A stretch of 64,000 nt of DNA from Loxodes magnus (lineage: Eukaryota > Ciliophora > Karyorelictea > Loxodida > Loxodidae), in the NCBI GenBank assembly GCA_946699065.1, contig CAMPDV010001327.1, forward strand, positions 1 to 64,000, in the 5' to 3' direction. The notes beneath the pieces were generated by a model that worked only from the letters and a program-made list of their open reading frames with translations, was not told the origin of the DNA and searched no databases. Below, in pieces: positions 1-30,900 of this stretch; position 1 is the stretch's first letter, and each line of letters starts with the position of its first letter. A program made the translations under genes and the position numbers.

Positions 1-3000
1 TTTAAATCTAACTATTTTTAATTCAATTAAAATTAAATTTAAATCTAACTATTTTTAATTTGCTTAAAATTAAATTTAAATCTAACTATTTTTAATTTGC
101 TTAAAATTAAATTTAAATCTAACTATTTTTAATTTGCTTAAAATCAATTTAAATCTAACTATTATTAATTTGCCTAAAATTAAATTTAAATCTAACTATT
201 TTTAATTTGCTTAAAATTAAATTTAAATCTAACTATTTTTAATTCAATTAAAATTAAATTTAAATCTAACTATATTTAATTCAATTAAAATTAAATTTAA
301 ATCTAACTATTTTTAATTTGCTTAAAATTAAATTTAAATCTAACTATTTTTAATTTAATTAAAATTAAATTTAAATCTAACTATTTTTAATTTGCTTAAA
401 ATTAAATTTAAATCTAACTATTTTTAATTTGCTTAAAATTAAATTAGAATCTAACTATTTTTACTTTGCTAAAAATTAAATTTAAATCTAACTATTTTTA
501 ATTTGCTTTAAATTAAATTTAAATCTAACTATTTTTAATTTGCTTAAAATTAAATTTAAATCTAACTATTTTTAATTTGCCTAAAATTAAAGTTAAATCT
601 AACTATTTTTAATTCAATTAAAATTAAATTTAAATCTAACTATTTTTAATTCAATTAAAATTAAATTTAAATCTAACTATTTTTAATTTGCTTAAAATTA
701 AATTTAAATCTAACTATTTTTAATTTGCTTAAAATCAAATTTAAATCTAACTATTTTTAATTCAATTAAAATTAAATTTAAATCTAACTATTTTTAATTT
801 GCTTAAAATCAAATTTAAATCTAACTATTTTTAATTCAATTAAAATTAAATTTAAATCTAACTATTATTAATTTGCCTAAAATTAAATTTAAATCTAACT
901 ATTTTTAATTTGCTTAAAATTAAATTAGAATCTAACTATTTTTAATTCAATTAAAATTAAATTTAAATCTAACTATTTTTAATTTAATTAAAATTAAATT
1001 TAAATCTAACTATTTTTAATTCAATTAAAATTAAATTTAAATCTAACTATATTTAATTCAATTAAAATTAAATTTAAATCTAACTATTTTTAATTCAATT
1101 AAAATTAAATTTAAATCTAACTATTTTTAATTTGCCTAAAATTAAATTTAAATCTAACTATTTTTAATTTGCTTTAAATTAAATTTAAATCTAACTATTT
1201 TTAATTTGCCTAAAATTAAATTTAAATCTAACTATTTTTAATTTGCCTAAAATTAAAGTTAAATCTAACTATATTTAATTCAATTTAAATTAAATTTAAA
1301 TCTAACTATTTTTAATTCAATTAAAATTAAATTTAAATCTAACTATTTTTAATTTGCTTAAAATTAAATTTAAATCTAACTATTTTTAATTTGCTTAAAA
1401 TCAATTTAAATCTAACTATTTTTAATTTGCCTAAAATTAAATTTAAATCTAACTATTTTTAATTTGCCTAAAATTAAATTTAAATCTAACTATTTTTAAT
1501 TTGCCTAAAATTAAAGTTAAATCTAACTATATTTAATTCAATTAAAATTAAATTTAAATCTAACTATTTTTAATTTGCCTAAAATTAAAGTTAAATCTAA
1601 CTATTTTTAATTCAATTAAAATTAAATTTAAATCTAACTATTTTTAATTTGCTTAAAATTAAATTTAAATCTAACTATTTTTAATTTGCTTTAAATTAAA
1701 TTTAAATCTAACTATTTTTAATTTGCCTAAAATTAAATTTAAATCTAACTATTTTTAATTTGCTTAAAATTAAATTAGAATCTAACTATTTTTAATTCAA
1801 TTAAAATTAAATTTAAATCTAACTATTTTTAATTCAATTAAAATTAAATTTAAATCTAACTATTTTTAATTTAATTAAAATTAAATTTAAATCTAACTAT
1901 TTTTAATTTGCTTAAAATTAAATTTAAATCTAACTATTTTAAATTCAATTAAAATTAAATTTAAATCTAACTATTTTTAATTTGCTTAAAATTAAATTTA
2001 AATCTAACTATATTTAATTCAATTAAAATTAAATTTAAATCTAACTATTTTTAATTTGCCTAAAATTAAATTTAAATCTAACTATTTTTAATTCAATTAA
2101 AATTAAATTTAAATCTAACTATTTTTAATTTGCTTAAAATCAAATTTAAATCTAACTATTTTTAATTCAATTAAAATTAAATTTAAATCTTTCTATTTTT
2201 AATTAAATTAAAATTAAATTTAAATCTTACTATTTTTAGATTGCCTAAAATTAAATTTAAATCTAACTATTTTTAATTTGCTTAAAATTAAATTTAAATC
2301 TAACTATTTTTAATTTGCCTAAAATTAAATTTAAATCTAACTATTTTTAATTCAATTAAAATTAAATTTAAATCTAACTATTTTTAATTTGCTTAAAATT
2401 AAATTTAAATCTAACTATTTTTAATTTGCTTAAAATTAAATTTAAATCTAACTATTTTTAATTTGCCTAAAATTAAATTTAAATCTAACTATTTTTAATT
2501 TGCTTTAAATTAAATTTAAATCTAACTATTTTTAATTTGCCTAAAATTAAATTTAAATCTAACTATTTTTAATTTGCTTAAAATTAAATTTAAATCTAAC
2601 TATTTTTAATTTGCTTAAAATCAATTTAAATCTAACTATTTTTAATTTGCCTAAAATTAAATTTAAATCTAACTATTTTTAATTTGCTTAAAATTAAATT
2701 TAAATCTAACTATTTTTAATTTGCCTAAAATTAAATTTAAATCTAACTATTTTTAATTTGCTTAAAATTAAATTTAAATCTAACTATTTTTAATTCAATT
2801 AAAATTAAATTTAAATCTAACTATTTTTAATTTGCTTAAAATTAAATTTAAATCTAACTATTTTTAATTCAATTAAAATTAAATTTAAATCTAACTATAT
2901 TTAATTCAATTAAAATTAAATTTAAATCTAACTATTTTTAATTCAATTAAAATTAAATTTAAATCTAACTATTTTTAATTTGCTTAAAATTAAATTTAAA

Positions 3001-6000
3001 TCTAACTATTTTTAATTTGCTTAAAATTAAATTTAAATCTAACTATTTTTAATTTGCCTAAAATTAAATTTAAATCTAACTATTTTTAATTTGCTTTAAA
3101 TTAAATTTAAATCTAACTATTTTTAATTTGCCTAAAATTAAATTTAAATCTAACTATTTTTAATTTGCTTAAAATTAAATTTAAATCTAACTATTTTTAA
3201 TTTGCTTAAAATCAATTTAAATCTAACTATTTTTAATTTGCCTAAAATTAAATTTAAATCTAACTATTTTTAATTTGCTTAAAATTAAATTTAAATCTAA
3301 CTATTTTTAATTTAATTAAAATTAAATTTAAATCTAACTATTTTTAATTTGCTTAAAATTAAATTTAAATCTAACTATTTTTAATTCAATTAAAATTAAA
3401 TTTAAATCTAACTATTTTTAATTTGCTTAAAATTAAATTTAAATCTAACTATTTTTAATTTGCTTAAAATCAAATTTAAATCTAACTATTTTTAATTCAA
3501 TTAAAATTAAATTTAAATCTAACTATTTTTAATTTGCTTAAAATTAAATTTAAATCTAACTATTTTTAATTTGCTTAAAATTAAATTTAAATCTAACTAT
3601 ATTTAATTCAATTAAAATTAAATTTAAATCTAACTATTTTTAATTTGCTTAAAATTAAATTTAAATCTAACTATTTTTAATTCAATTAAAATTAAATTTA
3701 AATCTAACTATTTTTAATTTGCTTAAAATTAAATTTAAATCTAACTATTTTTAATTTGCTTAAAATTAAATTTAAATCTAACTATATTTAATTCAATTAA
3801 AATTAAATTTAAATCTAACTATTTTTAATTTGCTTAAAATTAAATTTAAATCTAACTATTTTTAATTTGCTTAAAATTAAATTTAAATCTAACTATATTT
3901 AATTCAATTAAAATTAAATTTAAATCTAACTATTTTTAATTCAATTAAAATTAAATTTAAATCTAACTATATTTAATTCAATTAAAATTAAATTTAAATC
4001 TAACTATATTTAATTCAATTAAAATTAAATTTAAATCTAACTATTTTTAATTTGCCTAAAATTAAAGTTAAATCTAACTATTTTTAATTCAATTAAAATT
4101 AAATTTAAATCTAACTATTTTTAATTTGCTTAAAATTAAATTTAAATCTAACTATTTTTAATTTGCTTAAAATCAAATTTAAATCTAACTATTTTTAATT
4201 CAATTAAAATTAAATTTAAATCTAACTATATTTAATTCAATTAAAATTAAATTTAAATCTAACTATTTTTAATTCAATTAAAATTAAATTTAAATCTAAC
4301 TATTTTTAATTTGCTTAAAATCAATTTAAATCTAACTATTTTTAATTTGCCTAAAATTAAATTTAAATCTAACTATTTTTAATTTGCTTTAAATTAAATT
4401 TAAATCTAACTATTTTTAATTTGCCTAAAATTAAATTTAAATCTAACTATTTTTAATTTGCCTAAAATTAAAGTTAAATCTAACTATATTTAATTCAATT
4501 AAAATTAAATTTAAATCTAACTATTTTTAATTCAATTAAAATTAAATTTAAATCTAACTATTTTTAATTTAATTAAAATTAAATTTAAATCTAACTATTT
4601 TTAATTTGCTTAAAATCAATTTAAATCTAACTATTTTTAATTTGCCTAAAATTAAATTTAAATCTAACTATTTTTAATTTGCCTAAAATTAAATTTAAAT
4701 CTAACTATTTTTAATTTGCCTAAAATTAAAGTTAAATCTAACTATATTTAATTCAATTAAAATTAAATTTAAATCTAACTATTTTTAATTTGCCTAAAAT
4801 TAAAGTTAAATCTAACTATTTTTAATTCAATTAAAATTAAATTTAAATCTAACTATTTTTAATTTGCTTAAAATTAAATTTAAATCTAACTATTTTTAAT
4901 TTGCTTTAAATTAAATTTAAATCTAACTATTTTTAATTTGCCTAAAATTAAATTTAAATCTAACTATTTTTAATTTGCTTTAAATTAAATTTAAATCTAA
5001 CTATTTTTAATTCAATTAAAATTAAATTTAAATCTAACTATTTTTAATTTAATTAAAATTAAATTTAAATCTAACTATTTTTAATTTGCTTAAAATTAAA
5101 TTTAAATCTAACTATTTTTAATTCAATTAAAATTAAATTTAAATCTAACTATATTTAATTCAATTAAAATTAAATTTAAATCTAACTATTTTTAATTTGC
5201 TTAAAATTAAATTTAAATCTAACTATTTTTAATTTGCTTAAAATTAAATTTAAATCTAACTATATTTAATTCAATTAAAATTAAATTTAAATCTAACTAT
5301 TTTTAATTTGCTTAAAATTAAATTTAAATCTAACTATTTTTAATTTGCTTAAAATCAATTTAAATCTAACTATTTTTAATTTGCCTAAAATTAAATTTAA
5401 ATCTAACTATTTTTAATTTGCCTAAAATTAAATTTAAATCTAACTATTTTTAATTTGCCTAAAATTAAATTTAAATCTAACTATTTTTAATTTGCTTAAA
5501 ATTAAATTTAAATCTAACTATTTTTAATTTGCTTAAAATTAAATTTAAATCTAACTATATTTAATTCAATTAAAATTAAATTTAAATCTAACTATTTTTA
5601 ATTTGCTTAAAATTAAATTTAAATCTAACTATTTTTAATTTGCCTAAAATTAAATTTAAATCTAACTATTTTTAATTTGCCTAAAATTAAAGTTAAATCT
5701 AACTATTTTTAATTCAATTAAAATTAAATTTAAATCTAACTATTTTTAATTCAATTAAAATTAAATTTAAATCTAACTATTTTTAATTTAATTAAAATTA
5801 AATTTAAATCTAACTATTTTTAATTTGCTTAAAATTAAATTTAAATCTAACTATTTTTAATTCAATTAAAATTAAATTTAAATCTAACTATATTTAATTC
5901 AATTAAAATTAAATTTAAATCTAACTATTTTTATCTCAATTAAAATTAAATTTAAATCTAACTATTTTTAATTTGCTTAAAATTAAATTTAAATCTAACT

Positions 6001-9000
6001 ATTTTAAATTCAATTAAAATTAAATTTAAATCTAACTATTTTTAATTTGCTTAAAATTAAATTTAAATCTAACTATATTTAATTCAATTAAAATTAAATT
6101 TAAATCTAACTATTTTTAATTTGCTTAAAATTAAATTTAAATCTAACTATTTTTAATTTGCTTAAAATCAATTTAAATCTAACTATTTTTAATTTGCCTA
6201 AAATTAAATTTAAATCTAACTATTTTTAATTTGCTTTAAATTAAATTTAAATCTAACTATTTTTAATTTGCCTAAAATTAAATTTAAATCTAACTATTAT
6301 TAAATTGCCTAAAATTAAATTTAAATCTAACTATTTTTAATTTGCTTAAAATTAAATTTAAATCTAACTATTTTTAATTTGCTTAAAATTAAATTTAAAT
6401 CTAACTATTTTTAATTCAATTAAAATTAAATTTAAATCTAACTATATTTAATTTGCTTAAAATTAAATTTAAATCTAACTATTTTTAATTTGCTTAAAAT
6501 TAAATTTAAATCTAACTATTTTTAATTTGCTTAAAATTAAATTTAAATCTAACTATTTTTAATTTGCCTAAAATTAAATTTAAATCTAACTATTTTTAAT
6601 TTGCCTAAAATTAAATTTAAATCTAACTATTTTTAATTTACTTAAAATTAAATTTAAATCTAACTATTTTTAATTTGCTTAAAATTAAATTTAAATCTAA
6701 CTATTTTTAATTTGCTTAAAATCAAATTTAAATCTAACTATTTTTAATTCAATTAAAATTAAATTTAAATCTAACTATTTTTAATTTGCTTAAAATCAAA
6801 TTTAAATCTAACTATTTTTAATTCAATTAAAATTAAATTTAAATCTAACTATTTTTAATTTGCTTAAAATTAAATTTAAATCTTTCTATTTTTAATTAAA
6901 TTAAAATTAAATTTAAATCTTACTATTTTTAGATTGCCTAAAATTAAATTTAAATCTAACTATTTTTAATTTGCTTAAAATTAAATTTAAATCTAACTAT
7001 TTTTAATTTGCTTAAAATTAAATTTAAATCTAACTATTTTTAATTCAATTAAAATTAAATTTAAATCTAACTATTTTTAATTTGCTTAAAATTAAATTTA
7101 AATCTAACTATTTTTAATTTGCTTAAAATCAAATTTAAATCTAACTATTTTTAATTTGCTTAAAATTAAATTTAAATCTAACTATTTTTAATTTGCTTAA
7201 AATTAAATTTAAATCTAACTATTTTTAATTTGCTTAAAATTAAATTTAAATCTAACTATTTTTAATTTGCTTAAAATTAAATTTAAATCTAACTATTTTT
7301 AATTTGCTTAAAATTAAATTTAAATCTAACTATTTTTAATTCAATTAAAATTAAATTTAAATCTAACTATTTTTAATTTGCTTAAAATTAAATTTAAATC
7401 TAACTATATTTAATTCAATTAAAATTAAATTTAAATCTAACTATTTTTAATTTGCTTAAAATTAAATTTAAATCTAACTATTTTTAATTTGCTTAAAATT
7501 AAATTTAAATCTAACTATTTTTAATTCAATTAAAATTAAATTTAAATCTAACTATTTTTAATTTGCTTAAAATCAAATTTAAATCTAACTATTTTTAATT
7601 CAATTAAAATTAAATTTAAATCTAACTATTTTTAATTTGCTTAAAATCAATTTAAATCTAACTATTTTTAATTTGCTTAAAATCAAATTTAAATCCAACT
7701 ATTTTTAATTCAATTAAAATTAAATTTAAATCTAACTATTTTTAATTTGCTTAAAATTAAATTTAAATCTAACTATTTTTAATTTGCTTAAAATTAAATT
7801 TAAATCTAACTATTTTTAATTTGCTTAAAATTAAATTTAAATCTAACTATTTTTAATTTGCTTAAAATCAATTTAAATCTAACTATTTTTAATTTGCTTA
7901 AAATCAAATTTAAATCTAACTATTTTTAATTCAATTAAAATTAAATTTAAATCTAACTATTTTTAATTTGCTTAAAATTAAATTTAAATCTAACTATTTT
8001 TAATTTGCTTAAAATCAAATTTAAATCTAACTATTTTTAATTCAATTAAAATTAAATTTAAATCTAACTATTTTTAATTTGCCTAAAATCAATTTAAATC
8101 TAACTATTTTTAATTCAATTAAAATTAAATTTAAATCTAACTATTTTTAATTTGCCTAAAATTAAATTTAAATCTAACTATTTTTAATTTGCTTAAAATT
8201 AAATTTAAATCTAACTATTTTTAATTCAATTAAAATTAAATTTAAATCTAACTATTTTTAATTTGCTTAAAATTAAATTTAAATCTAACTATTTTTAATT
8301 TGCTTAAAATTAAATTTAAATCTAACTATTTTTAATTCAATTAAAATTAAATTTAAATCTAACTATTTTTAATTTGCTTAAAATTAAATTTAAATCTAAC
8401 TATATTTAATTCAATTAAAATTAAATTTAAATCTAACTATTTTTAATTTGCTTAAAATTAAATTTAAATCTAACTATTTTTAATTTGCTTAAAATTAAAT
8501 TTAAATCTAACTATTTTTAATTTGCTTAAAATTAAATTTAAATCTAACTATTTTTAATTCAATTAAAATTAAATTTAAATCTAACTATTTTTAATTTGCT
8601 TAAAATCAAATTTAAATCTAACTATTTTTAATTCAATTAAAATTAAATTTAAATCTAACTATTTTTAATTTGCTTAAAATTAAATTTAAATCTAACTATT
8701 TTTAATTTGCTTAGAATTAAATTTAAATCTAACTATTTTTAATTTGCTTAAAATTAAATTTAAATCTAACTATTTTTAATTCAATTAAAATTAAATTTAA
8801 ATCTAACTATTTTTAATTTGCCTAAAATTAAATTTAAATCTAACTATTTTTAATTTGCTTAAAATCAAATTTAAATCTAACTATTTTTAATTCAATTAAA
8901 ATTAAATTTAAATCTAACTATATTTAATTTGCTTAAAATTAAATTTAAATCTAACTATTTTTAATTTGCTTAAAATCAATTTAAATCTAACTATTTTTAA

Positions 9001-12000
9001 TTTGCTTAAAATTATATTTAAATCTAACTATTTTTAATTTGCTTAAAATTAAATTTAAATCTAACTATATTTAATTTGCTTAAAATTAAATTTAAATCTA
9101 ACTATTTTTAATTTGCTTAAAATTAAATTTAAATCTAACTATATTTAATTTGCTTAAAATTAAATTTAAATCTAACTATTTTTAATTTAATTAAAATTAA
9201 ATTTAAATCTAACTATTTTTAATTTGCTTAAAATTAAATTTAAATCTAACTATTTTTAATTCAATTAAAATTAAATTTAAATCTAACTATTTTTAATTTG
9301 CTTAAAATTAAATTTAAATCTAACTATTTTTAATTTGCTTAAAATCAAATTTAAATCTAACTATTTTTAATTCAATTAAAATTAAATTTAAATCTAACTA
9401 TTTTTAATTTGCTTAAAATTAAATTTAAATCTAACTATTTTTAATTCAATTAAAATTAAATTTAAATCTAACTATTTTTAATTTGCTTAAAATCAATTTA
9501 AATCTAACTATTTTTAATTTGCTTAAAATCAAATTTAAATCTAACTATTTTTAATTCAATTAAAATTAAATTTAAATCTAACTATTTTTAATTTGCTTAA
9601 AATTAAATTTAAATCTAACTATTTTTAATTTGCTTAAAATCAAATTTAAATCTAACTATTTTTAATTCAATTAAAATTAAATTTAAATCTAACTATTTTT
9701 AATTTGCCTAAAATCAATTTAAATCTAACTATTTTTAATTCAATTAAAATTAAATTTAAATCTAACTATTTTTAATTTGCCTAAAATTAAATTTAAATCT
9801 AACTATTTTTAATTTGCTTAAAATTAAATTTAAATCTAACTATTTTTAATTCAATTAAAATTAAATTTAAATCTAACTATTTTTAATTTGCTTAAAATTA
9901 AATTTAAATCTAACTATATTTAATTCAATTAAAATTAAATTTAAATCTAACTATTTTTAATTTGCCTAAAATCAATTTAAATCTAACTATTTTTAATTTG
10001 CTTTAAATTTTAAATCTAACTATTTTTAATTTGCCTAAAATTAAATTTAAATCTAACTATTTTTAATTTGCTTAAAATTAAATTTAAATCTAACTATTTT
10101 TAATTCAATTAAAATTAAATTTAAATCTAACTATTTTTAATTTGCTTAAAATTAAATTTAAATCTAACTATATTTAATTCAATTAAAATTAAATTTAAAT
10201 CTAACTATTTTTAATTTGCTTAAAATTAAATTTAAATCTAACTATTTTTAATTTGCTTAAAATTAAATTTAAATCTAACTATTTTTAATTTGCTTAAAAT
10301 TAAATTTAAATCTAACTATTTTTAATTTGCTTAGAATTAAATTTAAATCTAACTATTTTTAATTTGCTTAAAATTAAATTTAAATCTAACTATTTTTAAT
10401 TCAATTAAAATTAAATTTAAATCTAACTATTTTTAATTTGCCTAAAATTAAATTTAAATCTAACTATTTTTAATTTGCTTAAAATCAAATTTAAATCTAA
10501 CTATTTTTAATTCAATTAAAATTAAATTTAAATCTAACTATATTTAATTTGCTTAAAATTAAATTTAAATCTAACTATTTTTAATTTGCTTAAAATCAAT
10601 TTAAATCTAACTATTTTTAATTTGCTTAAAATTATATTTAAATCTAACTATTTTTAATTTGCTTAAAATTAAATTTAAATCTAACTATATTTAATTTGCT
10701 TAAAATTAAATTTAAATCTAACTATTTTTAATTTGCTTAAAATTAAATTTAAATCTAACTATTTTTAATTCAATTAAAATTAAATTTAAATCTAACTATT
10801 TTTAATTTGCTTAAAATTAAATTTAAATCTAACTATTTTTAATTTGCTTAAAATCAAATTTAAATCTAACTATTTTTAATTCAATTAAAATTAAATTTAA
10901 ATCTAACTATTTTTAATTTGCTTAAAATTAAATTTAAATCTAACTATTTTTAATTTGCTTAAAATCAAATTTAAATCTAACTATTTTTAATTCAATTAAA
11001 ATTAAATTTAAATCTAACTATTTTTAATTTGCTTAAAATTAAATTTAAATCTTAATTTGCTTAAAATTAAATTTAAATCTAACTATTTTTAATTCAATTT
11101 AAATTAAATTTAAATCTAACTATTTTTAATTTGCTTAAAATTAAATTTAAATCTAACTATTTTTAATTTGCTTAAAATTAAATTTAAATCTAACTATATT
11201 TAATTCAATTAAAATTAAATTTAAATCTAACTATTTTTAATTTGCTTAAAATTAAATTTAAATCTAACTATTTTTAATTAAATTAAAATTAAATTTAAAT
11301 CTAACTATTTTTAGATTGCCTAAAATCAATTTAAATCTAACTATTTTTAATTTGCTTAAAATTAAATTTAAATCTAACTTTTTTTAATTCAATTAAAATT
11401 AAATTTAAATCTAACTATTTTTAATTTGCTTAAAATCAATTTAAATCTAACTATTTTTAATTTGCTTAAAATCAAATTTAAATCTAACTATTTTTAATTC
11501 AATTAAAATTAAATTTAAATCTAACTATTTTTAATTTGCCTAAAATTAAAGTTAAATCTAACTATTTTTAATTTGCCTAAAATTAAATTTAAATCTAACT
11601 ATTTTTAATTCAATTAAAATTAAATTTAAATCTAACTATTTTTAATTTGCATAAAATTAAATTTAAATATAACTATTTTTAATTCAATTAAAATTAAATT
11701 TAAATCTAACTATTTTTAATTTGCCTAAAATTAAAGTTAAATCTAACTATTTTTAATTTGCCTAAAATTAAAGTTAAATCTAACTATTTTTAATTTGCCT
11801 AAAATCAAATTTAAATCTAACTATTTTTAATTTGCCTAAAATTAAATTTAAATCTAACTATTTTTAATTTGCTTAAAATTAAATTTAAATCTAACTATTT
11901 TTAATTAAATTAAAATTAAATTTAAATCTAACTATTTTTAGATTGCCTAAAATCAATTTAAATCTAACTATTTTTAATTTGCTTAAAATCAAATTTAAAT

Positions 12001-12958
12001 CTAACTATTTTTAATTTGCTTAAAATCAAATTTAAATCTAACTATTTTTAATTCAATTAAAATTAAATTTAAATCTAACTATTTTTAATTTGCTTAAAAT
12101 CAATTTAAATCTAACTATTTTTAATTTGCTTAAAATCAAATTTAAATCTAACTATTTTTAATTCAATTAAAATTAAATTTAAATCTAACTATTTTTAATT
12201 TGCTTAAAATCAAATTTAAATCTAACTATTTTTAATTCAATTAAAATTAAATTTAAATCTAACTATTTTTAATTTGCTAAAAATCAAATATAAATCTAAC
12301 TATTTTTAATTCAATTAAAATTAAATTTAAATCTAACTATTTTTAATTTGCTTAAAATTAAATTTAAATCTAACTATTTTTAATTTGCTTAAAATCAAAT
12401 TTAAATCTAACTATTTTTAATTTGCCTAAAATTAAATTTAAATCTAACTATTTTTAATTTGCCTAAAATTAAATTTAAATCTAACTATTTTTAATTTGCC
12501 TAAAATTAAATTTAAATCTAACTATTTTTAATTTGCCTAAAATTAAAGTTAAATCTAACTATTTTTAATTCAATTAAAATTAAATTTAAATCTAACTATT
12601 TTTAATTTGCCTAAAATTAAATTTAAATCTAACTAACTATTATTAATTAAATTAAAATTAAATTTAAATCTAACTATTTTTAATTTGCCTAAAATTAAAT
12701 TTAAATCTAACTATTTTTAATTTGCCTAAAATTAAATTTAAATCTAACTATTTTTAATTTGCCTAAAATTAAATTTAAATCTAACTATTTTTAATTTGCC
12801 TAAAATTAAATTTAAATCTAATTATTATTAATTAAATTAAAATTAAATTTAAATCTAACTATTTTTAATTTGCCTAAAATTAAATTTAAATCTAACTATT
12901 TTTAATTTGCTTAAAATTAAATTTAAATCTAACTATTTTTAATTTAATTAAAATTTAA
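1..12958. repeat. 37-bp AT-rich satellite array
   Basis: Head-to-tail tandem array with a monomer of 37 bp. Nearly every monomer carries the core TTTAAATCTAACTATTTTTA followed by a variable half. The variable half has three main forms: a TTTGCTTAAAATTAAA type, a TTCAATTAAAATTAAA type and a TTTGCCTAAAATTAAA type. Shorter 35-bp monomers ending in AAAATCAA also occur, as do monomers with TATATTTAA in the core. The array is already under way at base 1, so its left edge lies outside the window, and about 350 copies fit here. The right edge is sharp: the last recognisable monomer ends near 12958 and runs into T-rich unique sequence. G and C are almost limited to the TCTAAC and TTGC motifs. Runs of A or T recur roughly every 10-13 bp, which could give curved DNA (inference). 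No coding potential or promoter is visible. A centromeric, pericentromeric or subtelomeric satellite is the likely identity, but the sequence alone cannot say which. Confidence 0.97.
8637..9141. repeat. 500-bp block duplicated inside the 37-bp array
   Basis: This stretch recurs at about 10257-10761 at a fixed offset of 1620 bp. Both copies share rare private variants: TTAGAATTAA (8711 and 10331) and AAAATTATATTTAAATC (9007 and 10627). The same order of monomer types holds across both, and the match breaks at each edge. This points to recent unequal exchange or block duplication and not to independent mutation. A second, older marker pair with the odd TTTCTATTTTTAATTAAATT and TTTTTAGATTGCC monomers occurs near 2188-2250 and 6881-6945. 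Confidence 0.8.
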
Positions 12959-15268
12959 TTATTTATTTTCATAATACTTCCTCTTTTTTAGATTTTTTTT
13001 TATAGATTTAATATATTACTTTTTTTCGTTTTTAAAAGATTTAAACTAGCCTTTTTTTCATAATTACTACATTTTTTTTTTTATTAATTTTTTTTTTCTT
13101 ATTTAACATATTTTTATATAGTTTTTAATAAATTGCCTTTATTTAATCTTTATTTTTATTTTTTTTACTTTTTTTTAAATTTACTTTTTTTTTATGCTTT
13201 TTACCTAACATATTATGAAAAAAGTATTAGATTCTTCTATATAACTTATTTTTTCTATTGGTGCGATTAAAATTAATGTTAGATAAATATTTTATTCAAC
13301 TATTGATAGAATTTAGTATTTAATGATTTGTATTTTTTATTCGATTTTTAAGTTAAATCTTAATTTTATTTATTTGAATTATCTCTAAAAAAAGATTATT
13401 AAAGAATTTATATTTATTTTAAAATACTTATTATTTTATTTTTTTAATTTTCTATCAAAAGTTATTTAATAAAAGCTCTTCTAAAATATGAATCAGACTT
13501 TTATTTGATCCTGATTAAATACTTCTATATGATATATTTATAAATTATTTTTTGCAAGAAGTATTTCAAATTAAAATGCATGCTTCTATCAAGAAATTGA
13601 GAGTAGTCTTTTTTTTTTAATTTTAAGTTATATAAAATTAAGACTAAAGGAAGTATTTTTAAATTTTTTAAAGACAAATAAATTTCTAGAACTAGAATAA
13701 GTTAAATAGAAGATTAATTAATTTATATAATTTTTATTTTAGAAAATAAAAAATAAAACTAAATGTTGAATAAATTTTCTTGATTAAGTATATTAAAACT
13801 AATATTCTAATTTAAACGTAAAAATTTTCAAATATCTTAATTAAAGATAATTATTTTTTGATTATAGCTATAAAAATAAATTTCTTTAGAGCTTTAAATA
13901 TAATATACTTACATCTCTAAGTTTAACTTTAGCAATAATTATTATGGTATATAATTAAAATAATTAAGGATTATATAATTTTTTAATTCAGAAAAAGCTT
14001 AAGCATCATAAAACAGGTTTGAAAGTTAACTATATGAATTGGTTTTAATTTTCTATTTATTCTGTTAACTTAATCATAATTATATCTAAAACGCAATAAG
14101 AGAATTATAATTCTAAAGAAAATAATAGAGCTATATTAATCTATTAAGCTAGCTAAATTTAAAATAGTAAGAGATACTTTAAAAGATAACAATTATAAGT
14201 TATTTTGCTATCTTTATTATTTTTATCTAAGTAAAAATAAATAAATTAGTTAATTATCCTAAAATAATTTTTACTAAATGCCTCTTATGAAATATATCTT
14301 AGCTTTACAATTATTTCAATTTTAAGTATTCAATAAATAAAAATAGAATGCTTGACAAACCATAATTGAAATAAGTTGAATAAAAGTATTTTAATTAATT
14401 AAAATTATACATTCTAGATATTAATGATTATTTGAAACTTCCTTTATTTTAGTAAATAAAAAGCAAAATTTTAGAGGTAAAATTTAAAATTGCTTCTATA
14501 AAGATAAATATAAAAAATCAAGTTAAATATGCTTTAATTTTAAAATTTATGAATTTTAGAAAGAATCTAGTGATTTAAGAAGCATAACTGTAAGAAAATG
14601 CAATCAATTCATGTTTTTATATTTCTCTTACGTAAATTTTATAATGTACTTTAATTATTCAATAAATTCCTTAATCATTTATTTAATGAGAAAAAAAATT
14701 AGTATAATTTGAATACTTAGTTTAAAAATTAATCTAAGAATCCTTATTTTATGAAATTTTTTAAATTCTAAATTATTTTGTAAAGTTTTTAACTTATTTC
14801 GTAATAAATTTAAAATACATTTGTATTTATATATTTTAACAAATTTAACTATTAAAAATTAAAAAATTGTTAATAATGCATAACTATAATGTATTTTAAA
14901 TAGATAGAATAGCCATTTAAATTTAAAATAATATACTCTTAAAGAGAAATAGTTAGAATGCTATATAGATAATAATTTTATTTTTAATTATCTAGAAATT
15001 TTAGAAATAATAGCATTATTTCATTATTAAACTTGATTTTCTTCATTTATTTAATACTACTAATATAACTAATATATATTCTTTCTATAGAAGATCCATA
15101 ATCTAAGTATTTAAGTTAAGTTAATTTAATCATAAAGTTTCATTTTATGTTCTTAATAAATAATAGAGGTTTAGCATATATGATGATACTATTTTATGTA
15201 AGTTATTACTTATGCTTGGTAGCTTATTTAATTATTATCATTTTAATGCTCTATTTTTTATTAAAAAT
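12959..15268. other. AT-rich spacer, no gene seen
   Basis: Non-repetitive sequence to the right of the 37-bp array. The first 250 bases are rich in T homopolymers on the + strand; the rest is mixed A/T with very little G or C. I looked on both strands for protein-like stretches, allowing TAA, TAG and TGA as sense codons, and for RNA-gene signatures, and found nothing I can support before the tRNA relic at 15269. Confidence 0.7.
15263..15267 (-). terminator. T5 Pol III-type terminator after the tRNA relic
   Basis: On the minus strand the discriminator end of the tRNA-like sequence is followed after one base by five T residues, the usual RNA polymerase III stop signal. Its position suggests that the relic was once a normally arranged tRNA gene. 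Confidence 0.5.
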
Positions 15269-15334
15269 GACAGCGGTGGGATTTTAACCCACACCCCGAA
15301 AGACTAGCGCCTTAGACCACTCGGCCACACTGTC
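15269..15334 (-). pseudogene. tRNA-Leu relic lacking the anticodon arm
   Basis: The minus strand gives a 66-nt tRNA-like sequence. The acceptor stem is intact (GACAGTG against CGCTGTC, 7 pairs with one T-G pair). The D arm is a leucine-type GCCGAGTGGTCTAAGGC, which also serves as box A. The T stem is perfect (GTGGG/CCCAC), but its loop is TTAAAAT instead of the standard TTCGAAT, so box B has lost its invariant C and G. Between D arm and T arm only CTAGTCTTTCGGGGT remains, 15 nt where a leucine tRNA has an anticodon arm plus long variable arm of about 30 nt. The TCTTTCGGGGT part resembles a leucine variable arm, so the anticodon arm is what is missing. A CTAG...CTAG direct repeat formed by the two sides of an anticodon stem would explain a slippage deletion of about 13 nt (inference). 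It cannot decode and is best called a pseudogene. Leu fits the arms better than Ser. Confidence 0.75.
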
Positions 15335-22985: not shown

Positions 22986-25364
22986 ATGGATTTAACCGTC
23001 TGTTAGAGTTGTAGCAAAGTCTTTGACTAAAATCAAAGATTACCCAAAATAATAAGTTGTGGTTGCATTTAATGTACTAAATGCTTAAAAACATTTTAAA
23101 AAGTGACTGATACAATAAAATGTAAAATTCATAGCATTTAAGTAAATATAGATGAACAGAATCTGAAGAATTTCGACATAAAAGAGTACTTTAAGTAGGA
23201 AATCAATAATTTTGAACAACAAATCAATTTTAAGTAATTGATAAAAGACATATAAAGTGAATTAAGTTCCTAAAAGAACAAAATGACAGGGATCATTAAC
23301 ACGTGCTTAGATTTTTAAAAGATATTTAGTTAAGTAGTGAAGCAAGTCACTTCGATGTAATATCAAAAAGAAATTAAAAATTTTTAGACGAGTTCATTTT
23401 ATTTCGAGAGCTTCTTAAAAAAAATTAATACAATTAATGTGAAGTTTTGTTAGATAAAATCCCTTAAGATTGTAACTAGTTAAGAGTATAATCGAAGTAT
23501 AAATGTTTTAAAAAACTTGGTAAAAGAGGTTGGAGAATTGTAAAACGAGAGTAAGAAAGTAATTGAGTCAAATTCTAATGACAGTAATTAGAATTTCAAA
23601 ATCATCTAAGAAATTTCATTCAAGGTCTTTTAGGAGATTATGAGTATGAATCCCGAATAAAGATCAAATATGTAAGATTTCGCAGTTGTAATAAGAAAGT
23701 TCTTAGATCAATAAAACCAACTCAAGTAAAACCAGGCAAAAGAAGTGAGACAACCTTAAGAAGAAGTAAAAAAATAAATCTAAGGTCAGCAAGTTAACAA
23801 ATCAATTAAACCTTAAATTCCAAAATAAGTTCAAGCAGTTTAAACAGCAAAATAAACACTTTAGGAGTTCAAAATCGAAAGCATTCAGAACCTTTAAAAT
23901 ATCCTCAATGAATTCCAAAACAAATAAATCGATATGAGTTCCATTTTGAACAATCCATTGAATGTAATCAACTTATGCTAAAAATAAGTGATTCTTTACG
24001 ATTTAATATAATTAAATTCAGCAAAGAATCAATAATAAATGTTGCAGATCTTGAACATAGCTAAAAATCAACCAAAAATGTAAATAGCAGCTGCAAATGC
24101 TATAACAATGTTAAACTTCTTGAACTACAACTTTACGTAATAAAACTTCTCAAACATCGACTTAACAAACTCTGATCTCTCGGACACCACTTTCACAAAC
24201 TGTAAATTCTCCAACTCCAACCTAACATAATCTAACCTCCGTAACTCCAAATTCATAAACTGTGACTTATCCAATGCTAACCTTACCTCAATCTCTTCTG
24301 AGTACCCACACATCTTCACTGGACACTCCAACTCAGTCACCTCCGTGGCCATCTCCTCAGACTCTAATTTAATAGTATCCGCTTCCCTCGACAAAACTCT
24401 AAGACTTTACAACATAGCTACAGGTAGCTGTAAGACCATGAGTGGTCACACTAATTAGGTATGATCTGTGGCTATATCCAGTAATTCAGAGTTCATCGTA
24501 TCGGGAAGTTATGATTAGACGGTGAGACTATGGGACGTCAAGACAGGTACCTGTAAGACCATGAGTGGTCACACTAATTAGGTATGATCTGTGGCTATAT
24601 CCAGTAATTCAGAGTTCATCGTATCGGGAAGTGTAGATTAGACGGTGAGACTATGGGACGTCAAGACAGGTACCTGTAAGACCATGAGTGGTCACACTAA
24701 TTAGGTATGATCTGTGGCTATATCCAGTAATTCAGAGTTCATCGTATCGGGAAGTGTAGATTAGACGGTGAGACTATGGGACGTCAAGACAGGTACCTGT
24801 AAGACCATGAGTGGTCACACTAGTTATGTATCTGCTGTGGCTATATCTAGTGATTCCAACTTAATTATATCTGGATCGGATGACAAAACAATTCGTTTAT
24901 GGAACTCTCGAACTCTGTCTTGTACAATGGTCTTATCGGGACACACAGCTGAAGTCTTATCGGTAATATTCTCGAGTAACAACAAATATATCTTATCAGG
25001 ATCACTTGACAAGTCAATAAGAATCTGAAATATCAATAATGGATAGTGTGAATGTGTACTATTAGGTCATACGGACAGTGTGGGTAGTTTATCATTATCT
25101 AGGGACAACAATTGGTTAGTATCAAGTAACGGAGATAGATGGGGTAACTAATCAAAAGATTACATCATTAGAAGATGGAACTTAGGAAGGCTATTGAATA
25201 TAGTAGATACTAATAGTTAGCAATAGGTAAGTCCATTTTAACACACACATTTATTATAGACTGACTGGAACAAGGTATATGCTGACTATGGATTGCGATT
25301 TAAGAATTGTGTACTGACTAATACTACAATGAGTGTGGAGGACAAGTAGAGATACATCAGGTGA
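22986..25364 (+). CDS. RING finger / pentapeptide / WD40 repeat protein
   Basis: The frame runs unbroken from ATG 22986 to TGA 25362-25364, 792 codons, if TAA and TAG are Gln (several dozen cases) and internal TGA is Trp (codons 493, 534, 575, 681). Residues 6-49 form a RING-like zinc-binding pattern: C6-x2-C9, C25, C27, C30-x2-C33, C46-x2-H49. A long Gln/Asn/Lys-rich, probably coiled-coil section follows (about 54-375). Residues 387-434 are pentapeptide repeats of the (N/D)-L/F-x-x type, such as IDLTNSDLSDTTF. Seven WD40 blades start at GH 446, 487, 528, 569, 610, 652 and 694, enough for one closed propeller. A tail reaches residue 792. RING proteins are usually ubiquitin ligases and WD40 propellers bind partners, so a substrate-binding E3-like role is possible, but RING function is untested because one His is Cys here. 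The start fits because it lies just before the first zinc ligands. Similar domain mixes are typical of ciliate WD40 families. No intron is needed. The 3' half is far richer in G+C than the 5' half. Confidence 0.85.
24431..24821 (+). repeat. 123-bp tandem repeats encoding WD40 blades
   Basis: Three full copies (24431-24553, 24554-24676, 24677-24799) and a partial fourth, each exactly 41 codons, encode WD40 blades 2-4 and the edge of blade 5. The copies are nearly identical at the DNA level; the first differs by TATGAT versus GTAGAT, giving SYDQ instead of SVDQ. Each full copy carries one in-frame TAG and one in-frame TGA at the same two places (GHTNQVW). Neighbouring blades 1, 5, 6 and 7 are much more diverged, so these three arose by recent tandem duplication or are kept alike by gene conversion. 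Confidence 0.95.
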
Positions 25365-25593: not shown

Positions 25594-25965
25594 AAGTGTT
25601 AGAGTAACTAATAATTTTCTAGAGTTAGGAAAATTTGCAAAGTATGTACTAGCCAAAAATTTTCTAGATTTTTTCCAGTGTTAGAAAAATTTTTGAAGTA
25701 TGTACTAAAGTAAAAAAATATAAATGTTCTAGTGTTTAAAAATTTTGAGGTATGTACTGGATTTAAAAAATTTTAAATATATCTGGTGTTCGAAAAATTT
25801 TTAGAAGTATGTACTAAGCTAATTAATTTAAATTTTCAAGCGTTAGGAAAAATTTTTGAAGTATGTACTCAGCTAAATAATTTAAATTTTCCGGCGTTAG
25901 GAAAATTTTTGAGTTATGTGTTAGAGCTAAAATTTTTTTAATTTTATATTATAGTTTTAGAATTT
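25594..25965. repeat. degenerate tandem repeat of about 60 bp
   Basis: About six diverged copies share a core like GTTAGGAAAAATTTTTGAAG followed by TATGTACT, spaced about 55-65 bp apart. Copies near 25800-25920 are the most alike, with the linkers AATTTAAATTTTC. Divergence among units suggests an old array that is no longer being homogenised. No coding signal is visible. Confidence 0.8.
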
Positions 25966-27965: not shown

Positions 27966-30900
27966 TGCTTTGAAAGAAAAGATATCAGTATTTTGAAAAG
28001 TGATGAAGTAGAAAAGTAAGTAAAAGAGTTTGAAGATCATAATTGAAAGTAATAATAGAAAATGAGAAAGAAAGATGAGATTTCAAAGAAAAGTGAAGTA
28101 GAAAAGCAAGTAAAAGAGTTTGAAGATCATAATTGAAAGTAATAATAGAAAATGAGAAAGAGAGATGAGATTTCAAAGAAAAGTGAAGTAGAAAAGCAAG
28201 TAAAAGAGTGTGAAGATCATAATTGTAAGGTATCTAGAAGTTAAATAAGATTTCTAAGAAAAGTGAATAAGAAAAGCAAGTAAAAGAGTCTGAAAATCAT
28301 AATTGAAAGTAATAATAGAAAATGAGAAAGAGAGATGAGATTTCAAAGAAAAGTGAAGTAGAAAAGCAAGTAAAAGAGTTTGAAGATCATAATTGAAAGT
28401 AATAATAGAAAATGAGAAAGAGAGATGAGATTTCAAAGAAAAGTGAAGTAGAAAAGCAAGTAAAAGAGTGTGAAGATCATAATTGTAAGGTATCTAGAAG
28501 TTAAATAAGATTTCTAAGAAAAGTGAATAAGAAAAGCAAGTAAAAGAGTCTGAAAATCATAATTAAAAGTAATAAAATGAGAAAGAGAGATGAGATTTCA
28601 AAGAAAAGTGAAGTAGAAAAGCAAGTAAAAGAGTGTGAAGATCATAATTGAAAGTATCTAGAAGTTAAATAAGATTTCTAAGAAAAGAGAATAAGAAATG
28701 TAAGAAAAAGAGTGTGAAGATAATAATTGAAAGTATCTAGAAGTTAAATAAGATTTCTAAGAAAAGAGAATAAGAAATGTAAGTATAAGAGTTTGAAGAT
28801 CATAATTGAAAGCATCTAGAATTCAAATAAGATTTCTAAGAAAAGTGAATAAGAAAAGCAAGTAAAAGAGTCTGAAGATCATAATTAAAAGTATCAAGAA
28901 GTTAAATAAGATTTCAAAGAAAAGTGAATAAGAAAAGCAAGTAAAAGAGTGTGAAGATGATAATTGAAAGTATCTAGAAGTTAAATAAGATTTCTAAGAA
29001 ATGTGAAGTGGAAAAGCAAGCAAAAGAGTTTGAAGATCATAATTGAAAGTAATAAAATGAGAAAGAGAGATGAGATTTCAAAGAAAAGTGAAGTAGAAAA
29101 GCAAGTAAAAGAGTGTGAAGATCATAATTGAAAGTATCTAGAAGTTAAATAAGATTTCTAAGAAATGTGAAGTAGAAAAGCAAGTAAAAGAGTTTGAAGA
29201 TCATTTTGAAAGTATCTAGAAGTTAAATAAGATTTCTAAGAAATGTGAAGTAGAAAAGCAAGTAAAAGAGTGTGAAGATCATAATTGAAAGTAATAAAAT
29301 GAGAAAGAGAGATGAGATTTCAAAGAAAAGTGAAGTAGTAAAGCAAGTAAAAGAGTTTGAAGATCATAATTAAAAGTATCAAGAAGTTAAATAAGATTTC
29401 AAAGAAAAGTGAATAAGAAAAGCAAGTAAAAGAGTGTGAAGATCATAATTGAAAGTATCTAGAAGTTAAATAAGATTTCTAAGAAAAGAGAATAAGAAAT
29501 GTAAGAAAAAGAGTGTGAAGATAATAATTGAAAGTATCTAGAAGTTAAATAAGATTTCTAAGAAAAGAGAATAAGAAATGTAAGTATAAGAGTTTGAAGA
29601 TCATAATTGAAAGCATCTAGAATTTAAATAAGATTTCTAAGAAAAGTGAATAAGAAAAGCAAGTAAAAGAGTGTGAAGATCATAATTGAAAGTATCTAGA
29701 AGTTAAATAAGATTTCTAAGAAAAGAGAATAAGAAATGTAAGAAAAAGAGTGTGAAGATAATAATTGAAAGTATCTAGAAGTTAAATAAGATTTCTAAGA
29801 AAAGAGAATAAGAAATGTAAGCAAAAGAGTTTGAAGATCATAATTGAAAGTAATAAAATGAGAAAGAGAGATGAGATTTCAAAGAAAAGTGAAGTAGAAA
29901 AGCAAGTAAAAGAGTGTGAAGATCATAATTGAAAGTATCTAGAAGTTAAATAAGATTTCTAAGAAATGTGAAGTAGAAAAGCAAGTAAAAGAGTGTGAAG
30001 ATCGTAATTGAAAGTATCTAGAAGTTAAATAAGATTTCTAAGAAATGTGAAGTAGAAAAGCAAGTAAAAGAGTGTGAAGATCATAATTGAAAGTAATAAA
30101 ATGAGAAAGAGAGATGAGATTTCAAAGAAAAGTGAATAAGAAATGTAAGAAAAAGAGTGTGAAGATCATAATTGTAAGTATCAAGAAGTTAAATAAGATT
30201 TCTAAGAAAAGTGAATAAGAAGAGCAAGTAAAAGAGTCTGAAGATCATAATTAAAAGTATCTAGAAGTTAAAAAAGGTTTCAAAGAAAAGTGAAGTTGAA
30301 ATGTAAGTAAAAGAGTGTGAAGATCATAATTGAAAGTTTCTAGAAGTTAAATAAGATTTCTAAGAAAAGAGAATAATAAATATAAGAAAAAGAGTGTGAA
30401 GATCATAATTGAAAGTATCAGAAATAAAATAAAATTTCTAAGAAAAGTGAATAAGAAAAGTAGGAAAAAGAGTGTGAAGATCATAATTGTAAGGTATCTA
30501 GAAGTAAAATAAGATTTCTACAAAAAGTGAATAAGAAAAGCAAGTAATAGAGTCTGAAGATCATAATTGAAAGTAATAAAATGAGAAAGAGAGATGAGAT
30601 TTCAAAGAAAAGTGAAGTAGTAAAGCAAGTAAAAGAGTCTGAAGATTTAATTGAAAGTAATAATAGAAAATGAGAAATAGTGATGAGATTTCAAAGCAAA
30701 GTGAAAAAGAAGAGCAAGTAAAAGAGTCTGAAGATCATAATTGTAAGTATCTAGAAGTTAAAAAAGATTTCAAAGAAAAGTGAAGTAGAAATGCAAGTAT
30801 AGAGTGTGAAGATCATAATTGAAAGTATCTAGAAGTTAAATAAGATTTCTAAGAAAAGTGAATAAGAAAAGCAAGAAAAAGAGTGTGAAGATCATAATTG

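Follow-up and report, generated by a model that had tools for sequence, protein, structure and literature searches.

The window, a stretch of 64,000 nucleotides analysed over its whole length, contains a predicted protein-coding gene on the plus strand at 22986 to 25364, delimited by a frame scan, PF00400 matches and propeller alignments. An ATG at 22986 opens an unbroken frame of 792 codons, after which comes a TGA at 25362 (25362 to 25364), the fifth TGA in that frame. The gene sits between two satellites: a 37-bp satellite at 1 to 12960 (~351 copies, GC ~11%, with a strong GC skew) and a 79-bp satellite at 28428 to 64000, which has a purine-rich strand and forms three overlapping rows, the main one (28428 to 63218) holding ~435 copies. 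Shortly downstream of the gene, at 25613 to 25932, there is also a degenerate 54-bp repeat with the core GTATGTACT. ARAGORN called no tRNA within the 64-kb window. A tRNA-like match to RF00005 (44.1 bits) lies on the minus strand at 15268 to 15334; 9 nt replace 15 model positions around its anticodon arm, and it is perhaps a decayed tRNA.

In-frame TGA codons in a WD40 gene

Translation of the gene yields a match to PF00400 (WD40) with an E value of 2.9e-73, in seven stretches of the C-terminal half (33 families were matched overall), and aligns to solved WD40 propeller structures; since the queries in both cases were translated with TGA as tryptophan, these alignments are no neutral test of the code. 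By eye, the N-terminus is CxxC-rich and RING-like, and a pentapeptide-like stretch precedes the propeller.

The four internal TGA codons that had been noted from the sequence alone, at 24462, 24585, 24708 and 25026, are all present, and the frame is unbroken as had been stated. The first three (24462 to 24464, 24585 to 24587 and 24708 to 24710, all on the plus strand) fall in copies 1, 2 and 3 of a 123-bp tandem repeat found by repeat detection at 24420 to 24856, also on the plus strand, which has 3.6 copies and encodes WD repeats. A tryptophan reading of these codons is suggested in each case by the frame and the repeat, and for the first also by the propeller alignment. Because the three are repeat copies, the gene contains just two independent sense-TGA events, the same duplication and the same count that the sequence-only reading had proposed. 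The fourth codon, at 25026 to 25028 (plus strand), occupies the conserved W position in a WD blade, as judged from the frame, the propeller alignment and column 681 of the family alignment described below. The adjacent repeats do have TGG as the blade W codon, as had been said, at 24531, 24654, 24777 and 24900. The "dozens" of in-frame TAA and TAG codons number 55 (37 TAA and 18 TAG). The terminal TGA on the plus strand at 25362, which was absent from the earlier list of in-frame TGA codons, comes 112 codons after the last sense TGA and would supply the stop that the gene was said to need.

The number of TGA codons in this frame is low for its composition. Each of the other five frames between 22980 and 25380 has 14 to 25 TGA codons, and dinucleotide-preserving shuffles of the gene's own stretch give an expectation of 16.2 in frame (s.d. 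3.5), with five or fewer in 0 of 1000 shuffles. Thus, the frame is depleted of TGA, though it is not free of it.

Such a pattern could arise if TGA were a stop only and the locus were a pseudogene or a germline-limited copy bearing two nonsense mutations, of which the repeat had copied one, an alternative that the sequence-only reading had left standing. The presence of just two independent events in the gene speaks for this explanation; the evidence from the rest of the genome, given below, makes it very improbable and points instead to TGA as a sense codon within genes.

The WD40 family in the same genome

A search of the gene's own genome returned at least 59 rows (from 36,997 first-look candidates, of which 57 went through scoring), among which at least 55, including the window gene itself, are near full length and span codons 1 to 731 at least. 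Every one of the 55 near-full-length rows listed has from one to six TGA codons inside it, which argues against chance nonsense mutations at one locus. The ends of these rows differ, with 33 of the 55 reaching codon 791 or 792 and 22 stopping short at codons 731 to 777, and some rows represent duplicate contigs. A wider search of the genome for WD40 domains gave at least 150 matches and found tandem WD40 arrays; one array locus (L002) was left out since its copies are not independent. Numerous WD40 repeats stand in tandem on contig C1503, from ~11 to 102 kb. TGA recurs at equivalent positions in some of them, and the stretch could be either genes or a satellite.

Ten family rows, L075 to L084 with L075 being the window gene, were aligned by codon. 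For counts near the end of the gene, L076, L079 and L080 were left out from column 740 onward, as they are shifted out of frame there, and L083 was left out as identical to L082. TGA occurs in 19 columns. Six columns inside the gene (598, 639, 681, 719, 731 and 761) mix TGA with TGG, and the number is still six once the duplicate row and the frame-shifted ends are removed; after those exclusions, column 761 has TGG in four rows and TGA in two. Column 681, which corresponds to 25026, has TGA in nine of the ten rows and TGG in one (eight and one without the identical copy), so that the claim of a conserved W at this site is borne out within the family. This swap also speaks against the reading of 25026 as a nonsense mutation. 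Of the remaining columns, the TGA in column 776 derives from out-of-frame rows, column 793 is the stop, and column 796, although it mixes TGG and TGA, lies beyond the stop and is hence uncounted.

Another ten in-gene columns (468, 493, 509, 532, 534, 550, 552, 575, 616 and 729) have TGA without TGG. These are compatible with replacement of a tryptophan but also with a nonsense mutation, and they count in favor of the latter. Column 729, for example, has CGA and AGA alongside TGA. The three repeat-borne sites of the window gene belong to this group: column 493 (24462) has TGA in four rows, TAT in three, TTA in two, TTT in one and TGG in none; column 534 (24585) has TGA in five, TAT in four, TTA in one and TGG in none; and column 575 (24708) has TGA in the window gene, TAT in three rows, TCT in three, AAT in two and TTA in one. 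For these three columns, the probable tryptophan reading is drawn from the WD40 pattern and from the code as seen at other sites.

Another point in favor of nonsense mutation is the loss of frame in some family copies towards the end of the gene. In L076, L079 and L080, the frame has shifted just before codon 760, so that the stop column is not in frame and the reading meets other TGA codons at 760 and 767. The early ending of 22 of the 55 near-full-length rows, which these three exemplify, is a second ending of the WD40 family and may represent either decay or a true variant end. The stop column has TGA in six of the ten rows; besides the window gene, the five further rows with a TGA stop have their last sense TGA at least 32 codons before it. 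The full-length row L078, on contig C3306, has TAA at the stop column and its next in-frame TGA at codon 880.

Relative to the window gene, dN/dS, calculated on the assumption that TGA is tryptophan and TAA and TAG are glutamine, is 0.17 to 0.28 over codons 1 to 440 and 0.33 to 0.58 over codons 441 to 757, the WD40 half. From these values, the family looks to be under constraint. Given that TGA and TGG share columns and that dN/dS is 0.17 to 0.28 in the first part of the gene, the internal TGA codons are poorly explained by nonsense mutations arising by chance.

Prp8, eRF1 and the tRNAs

A codon-to-amino-acid inference had been proposed as a check, and it was run on one conserved gene, Prp8, the genome's sole match to PF08083. 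To avoid any pull towards tryptophan, the frame was translated with every TGA as X. The first part (L073) aligns to the human protein over query positions 136 to 1029, with 621 identities in 893 aligned residues. In this part, all 12 masked TGA codons lie opposite a human W, as do eight of the nine TGG codons; two human W residues are opposite the non-Trp codons AAG and CCT. TAA is opposite Q at 17 of 23 sites and TAG at four of seven (together 21 of 30), as compared with four of eight for CAA and none of two for CAG. No TGA occurs in the frame between the region of query position 1029 and the end of L073, nor in the first 133 codons of the second part (L074). From codon 134 of L074 on there are seven TGA codons, four opposite W, two opposite Y and one opposite N, the last of these adjoining a gap. 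Altogether, Prp8 has 19 in-frame sense TGA codons, with 16 opposite a human W and three not (Y, Y and N). The terminal TGA, separated from the last sense TGA by 81 codons, falls at the position of the human C-terminus: the query is aligned to position 874 of 884 and the human chain to 2297 of 2311.

This outcome favors UGA as tryptophan and UAA/UAG as glutamine, as the sequence-only reading had maintained. Judged by its alignment to the human protein, Prp8 is one gene in which a TGA that apparently encodes tryptophan, TAA and TAG that apparently encode glutamine, and a terminal TGA occur together; it is also the single outside gene put to this comparison. A match found once in the genome, with 19 in-frame TGA codons and 16 of them opposite W, is not what nonsense mutation predicts, and the W sites of Prp8 together with the TGA/TGG swaps across the family rows led to the rejection of the nonsense and pseudogene readings.

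The sense reading in Prp8 would also be expected if UGA were wholly and unambiguously reassigned to tryptophan and some other signal terminated translation, and the TAA at the stop column of L078 fits this idea. However, Prp8 stops at TGA at the end of the human protein, and so do both copies of eRF1; the stop column of the WD40 family has TGA in six of ten rows, while TAA and TAG run through the frames; and in the published account of the Loxodes magnus code, UGA is the sole stop (PMC11441545). Full reassignment is consequently extremely improbable, and UGA most probably has both meanings, sense inside a gene and stop where the gene ends.

The two eRF1 genes (L071 and L072) lie ~35 kb apart on contig C196. 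Neither contains a sense TGA. Both end at a TGA that coincides with the human protein end (for the second copy, as judged by eye), with a further in-frame TGA three codons on. Residues of eRF1 that read stop codons have been placed at E55, (TAS)NIKS, YxCxxxF and Ser70, and in Blastocrithidia Ser70 is Gly (PMC12153298). Compared with the human protein, the eRF1 found here has the changes E55A, T58R, S60Q, S70A and Y125F and retains GTS and NIKS; the change of Ser70 to Ala is seen in the L071 copy and, by eye, likewise in L072. It may be inferred from these substitutions that UGA recognition is weakened in this genome.

It had also been suggested that tRNA-Trp(UCA) and tRNA-Gln(UUA/CUA) be looked for. 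A tRNA pattern search gave 164 matches, as against 33 in the reversed control, and among the 100 matches listed, 78 were one tRNA-Trp(CCA) segment, 48 of them on C67 and 30 on C148. When 30 loci were cut out and given to ARAGORN, a tRNA was called in 16, every one of them Trp(CCA), and the copies drawn have an anticodon stem of 4 bp. The stem pairs ATCGA on the 5' side with TCGAC on the 3' side, leaving an A.C on top and four pairs beneath; the mismatch is A27.C43 in the standard 27-43 numbering, which was assigned by hand. The sequence is identical in 212 of 213 ARAGORN rows, which come from overlapping loci (the odd row is apparently clipped at the end of its locus); the 40 DNA matches that were scored, every one of them on C67, carry it without exception. 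The copies form long tandem arrays at C67:482293-491202 and C148:157294-164073, with periods of ~188 bp and ~241 bp. Pattern matches number at least 48 on C67; on C148, at least 29 fall inside the array and one lies outside it, at 155465 on the opposite strand; the copies read fully are those on C67.

CCA was the only type of tRNA-Trp seen at the loci examined. Two strict patterns for tRNA-Trp(UCA) gave 13 matches (control 6) and one match (control 4), respectively, and seven of the 13 are nearly one 31-mer. At the seven of these 14 candidates that were examined with ARAGORN (C9, C11, C25, the first C921 site, C444, C558 and C594), no tRNA of any kind was called, and tRNA-Trp(UCA) was thus not confirmed there; the remaining candidates, outside the ARAGORN check, are C136 (two), C561, the second C921 site, C991, C1144 and C346.

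A first pattern for tRNAs with a UAR anticodon gave no excess (23 matches versus 27 in the control), and a second gave 460 versus 37. As a source of glutamine tRNAs, the second pattern was rejected: 50 of the 72 rows displayed share one sequence at Lys(UUU) genes and another 12 share one that is probably Arg(UCU), so that the pattern is out of register in both groups. For a Gln-shaped arm bearing UUA or CUA as its anticodon, a pattern search gave 251 matches versus one in the reversed control, and these are candidates by pattern. An Rfam tRNA search found 63 places, and ARAGORN, applied to 30 loci cut out, called only Lys(UUU) (32) and Ala(UGC) (14).

A known ambiguous code

Taken together, these results indicate that the window is almost certainly macronuclear DNA of a karyorelict, very probably Loxodes magnus, which uses NCBI table 27: UAA and UAG would encode glutamine, and UGA would encode tryptophan within genes and act as the stop at their ends. 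The odds of this reading rest mainly on Prp8. On the other side stand the three Prp8 TGA codons not opposite W, the ten in-gene family columns that have TGA without TGG, the four of ten rows that lack TGA at the stop column, the 22 early-ending rows and the higher dN/dS of the WD40 half. In the window gene, the in-frame TAA and TAG codons would then be read as glutamine and the TGA codons at 24462, 24585, 24708 and 25026 as tryptophan, the first three having arisen from a single one through the tandem repeat; the stop would be the TGA at 25362. Karyorelictids had been named as possible owners of the sequence, and its repeat content and base composition do fit Loxodes magnus. The assembly has 705,730,643 bp in 7,843 contigs; the published macronuclear assembly is given as 706 Mbp, of which low-complexity tandem repeats make up 231 Mbp (PMC11441545). 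The GC content of the window gene is 33.2% in the coding sequence and 14% in the 100 nt directly 3' of it, and the published values are 33.5% for coding sequence and 18.6% for 3'-UTRs (PMC11441545). Judged by size and composition, an origin from a different karyorelict that shares this code is improbable. In the features tested, which include a coding GC content of ~33% and richness in repeats, no difference from L. magnus as described in that account (PMC11441545) was found.

Karyorelicts, including Loxodes, are stated to use table 27, in which UGA encodes tryptophan and is at the same time the sole stop (PMC11441545), and the assignments found here, UAA/UAG as glutamine, UGA as tryptophan internally and UGA as stop at the ends, are the same as those described for L. 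magnus (PMC11441545). Table 27 is further characterised by an absence of sense UGA from the final ~20 codons, and the genes looked at agree with this: the stop follows the last sense TGA by 112 codons in the window gene, by 81 in Prp8 and by at least 32 in the five other family rows with a TGA stop. The ordinary ciliate code, table 6, likewise has UAA and UAG as glutamine and UGA as stop; here, UGA is additionally tryptophan. For Condylostoma magnum and Parduczia, the same sense meanings of UAA, UAG and UGA are described, together with a stop meaning near transcript ends (PMC4967479), and the part of that account concerned with tRNAs likewise gives no tRNA-Trp(UCA) in C. magnum (PMC4967479). 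However, all three codons also serve as stops in C. magnum (PMC4967479), whereas TGA ends the window gene, Prp8 and the two eRF1 genes here.

A short-stem tRNA-Trp has been reported in Blepharisma and Loxodes (PMC13092985, PMC12005148), with Swart et al. cited for Loxodes (PMC13092985). We suggest, tentatively and with some doubt, that the ambiguous code of karyorelicts may use the two-part kit of Blastocrithidia, consisting of a short-stem tRNA-Trp(CCA) and an eRF1 multiply changed at its stop-reading residues, so that sense would be the default for UGA and termination would require assistance from the end of the mRNA. The two systems do differ in their details: in Blastocrithidia, Ser70 is replaced by Gly, UAR encodes glutamate and UAA is the stop (PMC12153298), while here, Ser70 is replaced by Ala, UAR would encode glutamine and UGA would be the stop.

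A code already known was thus correctly rediscovered, one that is ordinary for a karyorelict. Its novelty was overrated in the sequence-only reading, as the code and its tRNA had already been published, and there is little new biology in it given the existing accounts of the code (PMC11441545) and of the short-stem tRNA of Loxodes (PMC13092985, citing Swart et al.). The main text of the L. magnus paper (PMC11441545) does not mention tRNA, eRF1 or WD40; small, testable additions come from the tRNA-Trp arrays and from the residues at which eRF1 differs, and we do not claim these to be unpublished. An ambiguous code was recognised here from the bare sequence alone, and this matters for gene models in such genomes: annotation with table 6 would cut Prp8 at its first sense TGA and would cut the window gene at 24462, with the loss of most of its propeller.
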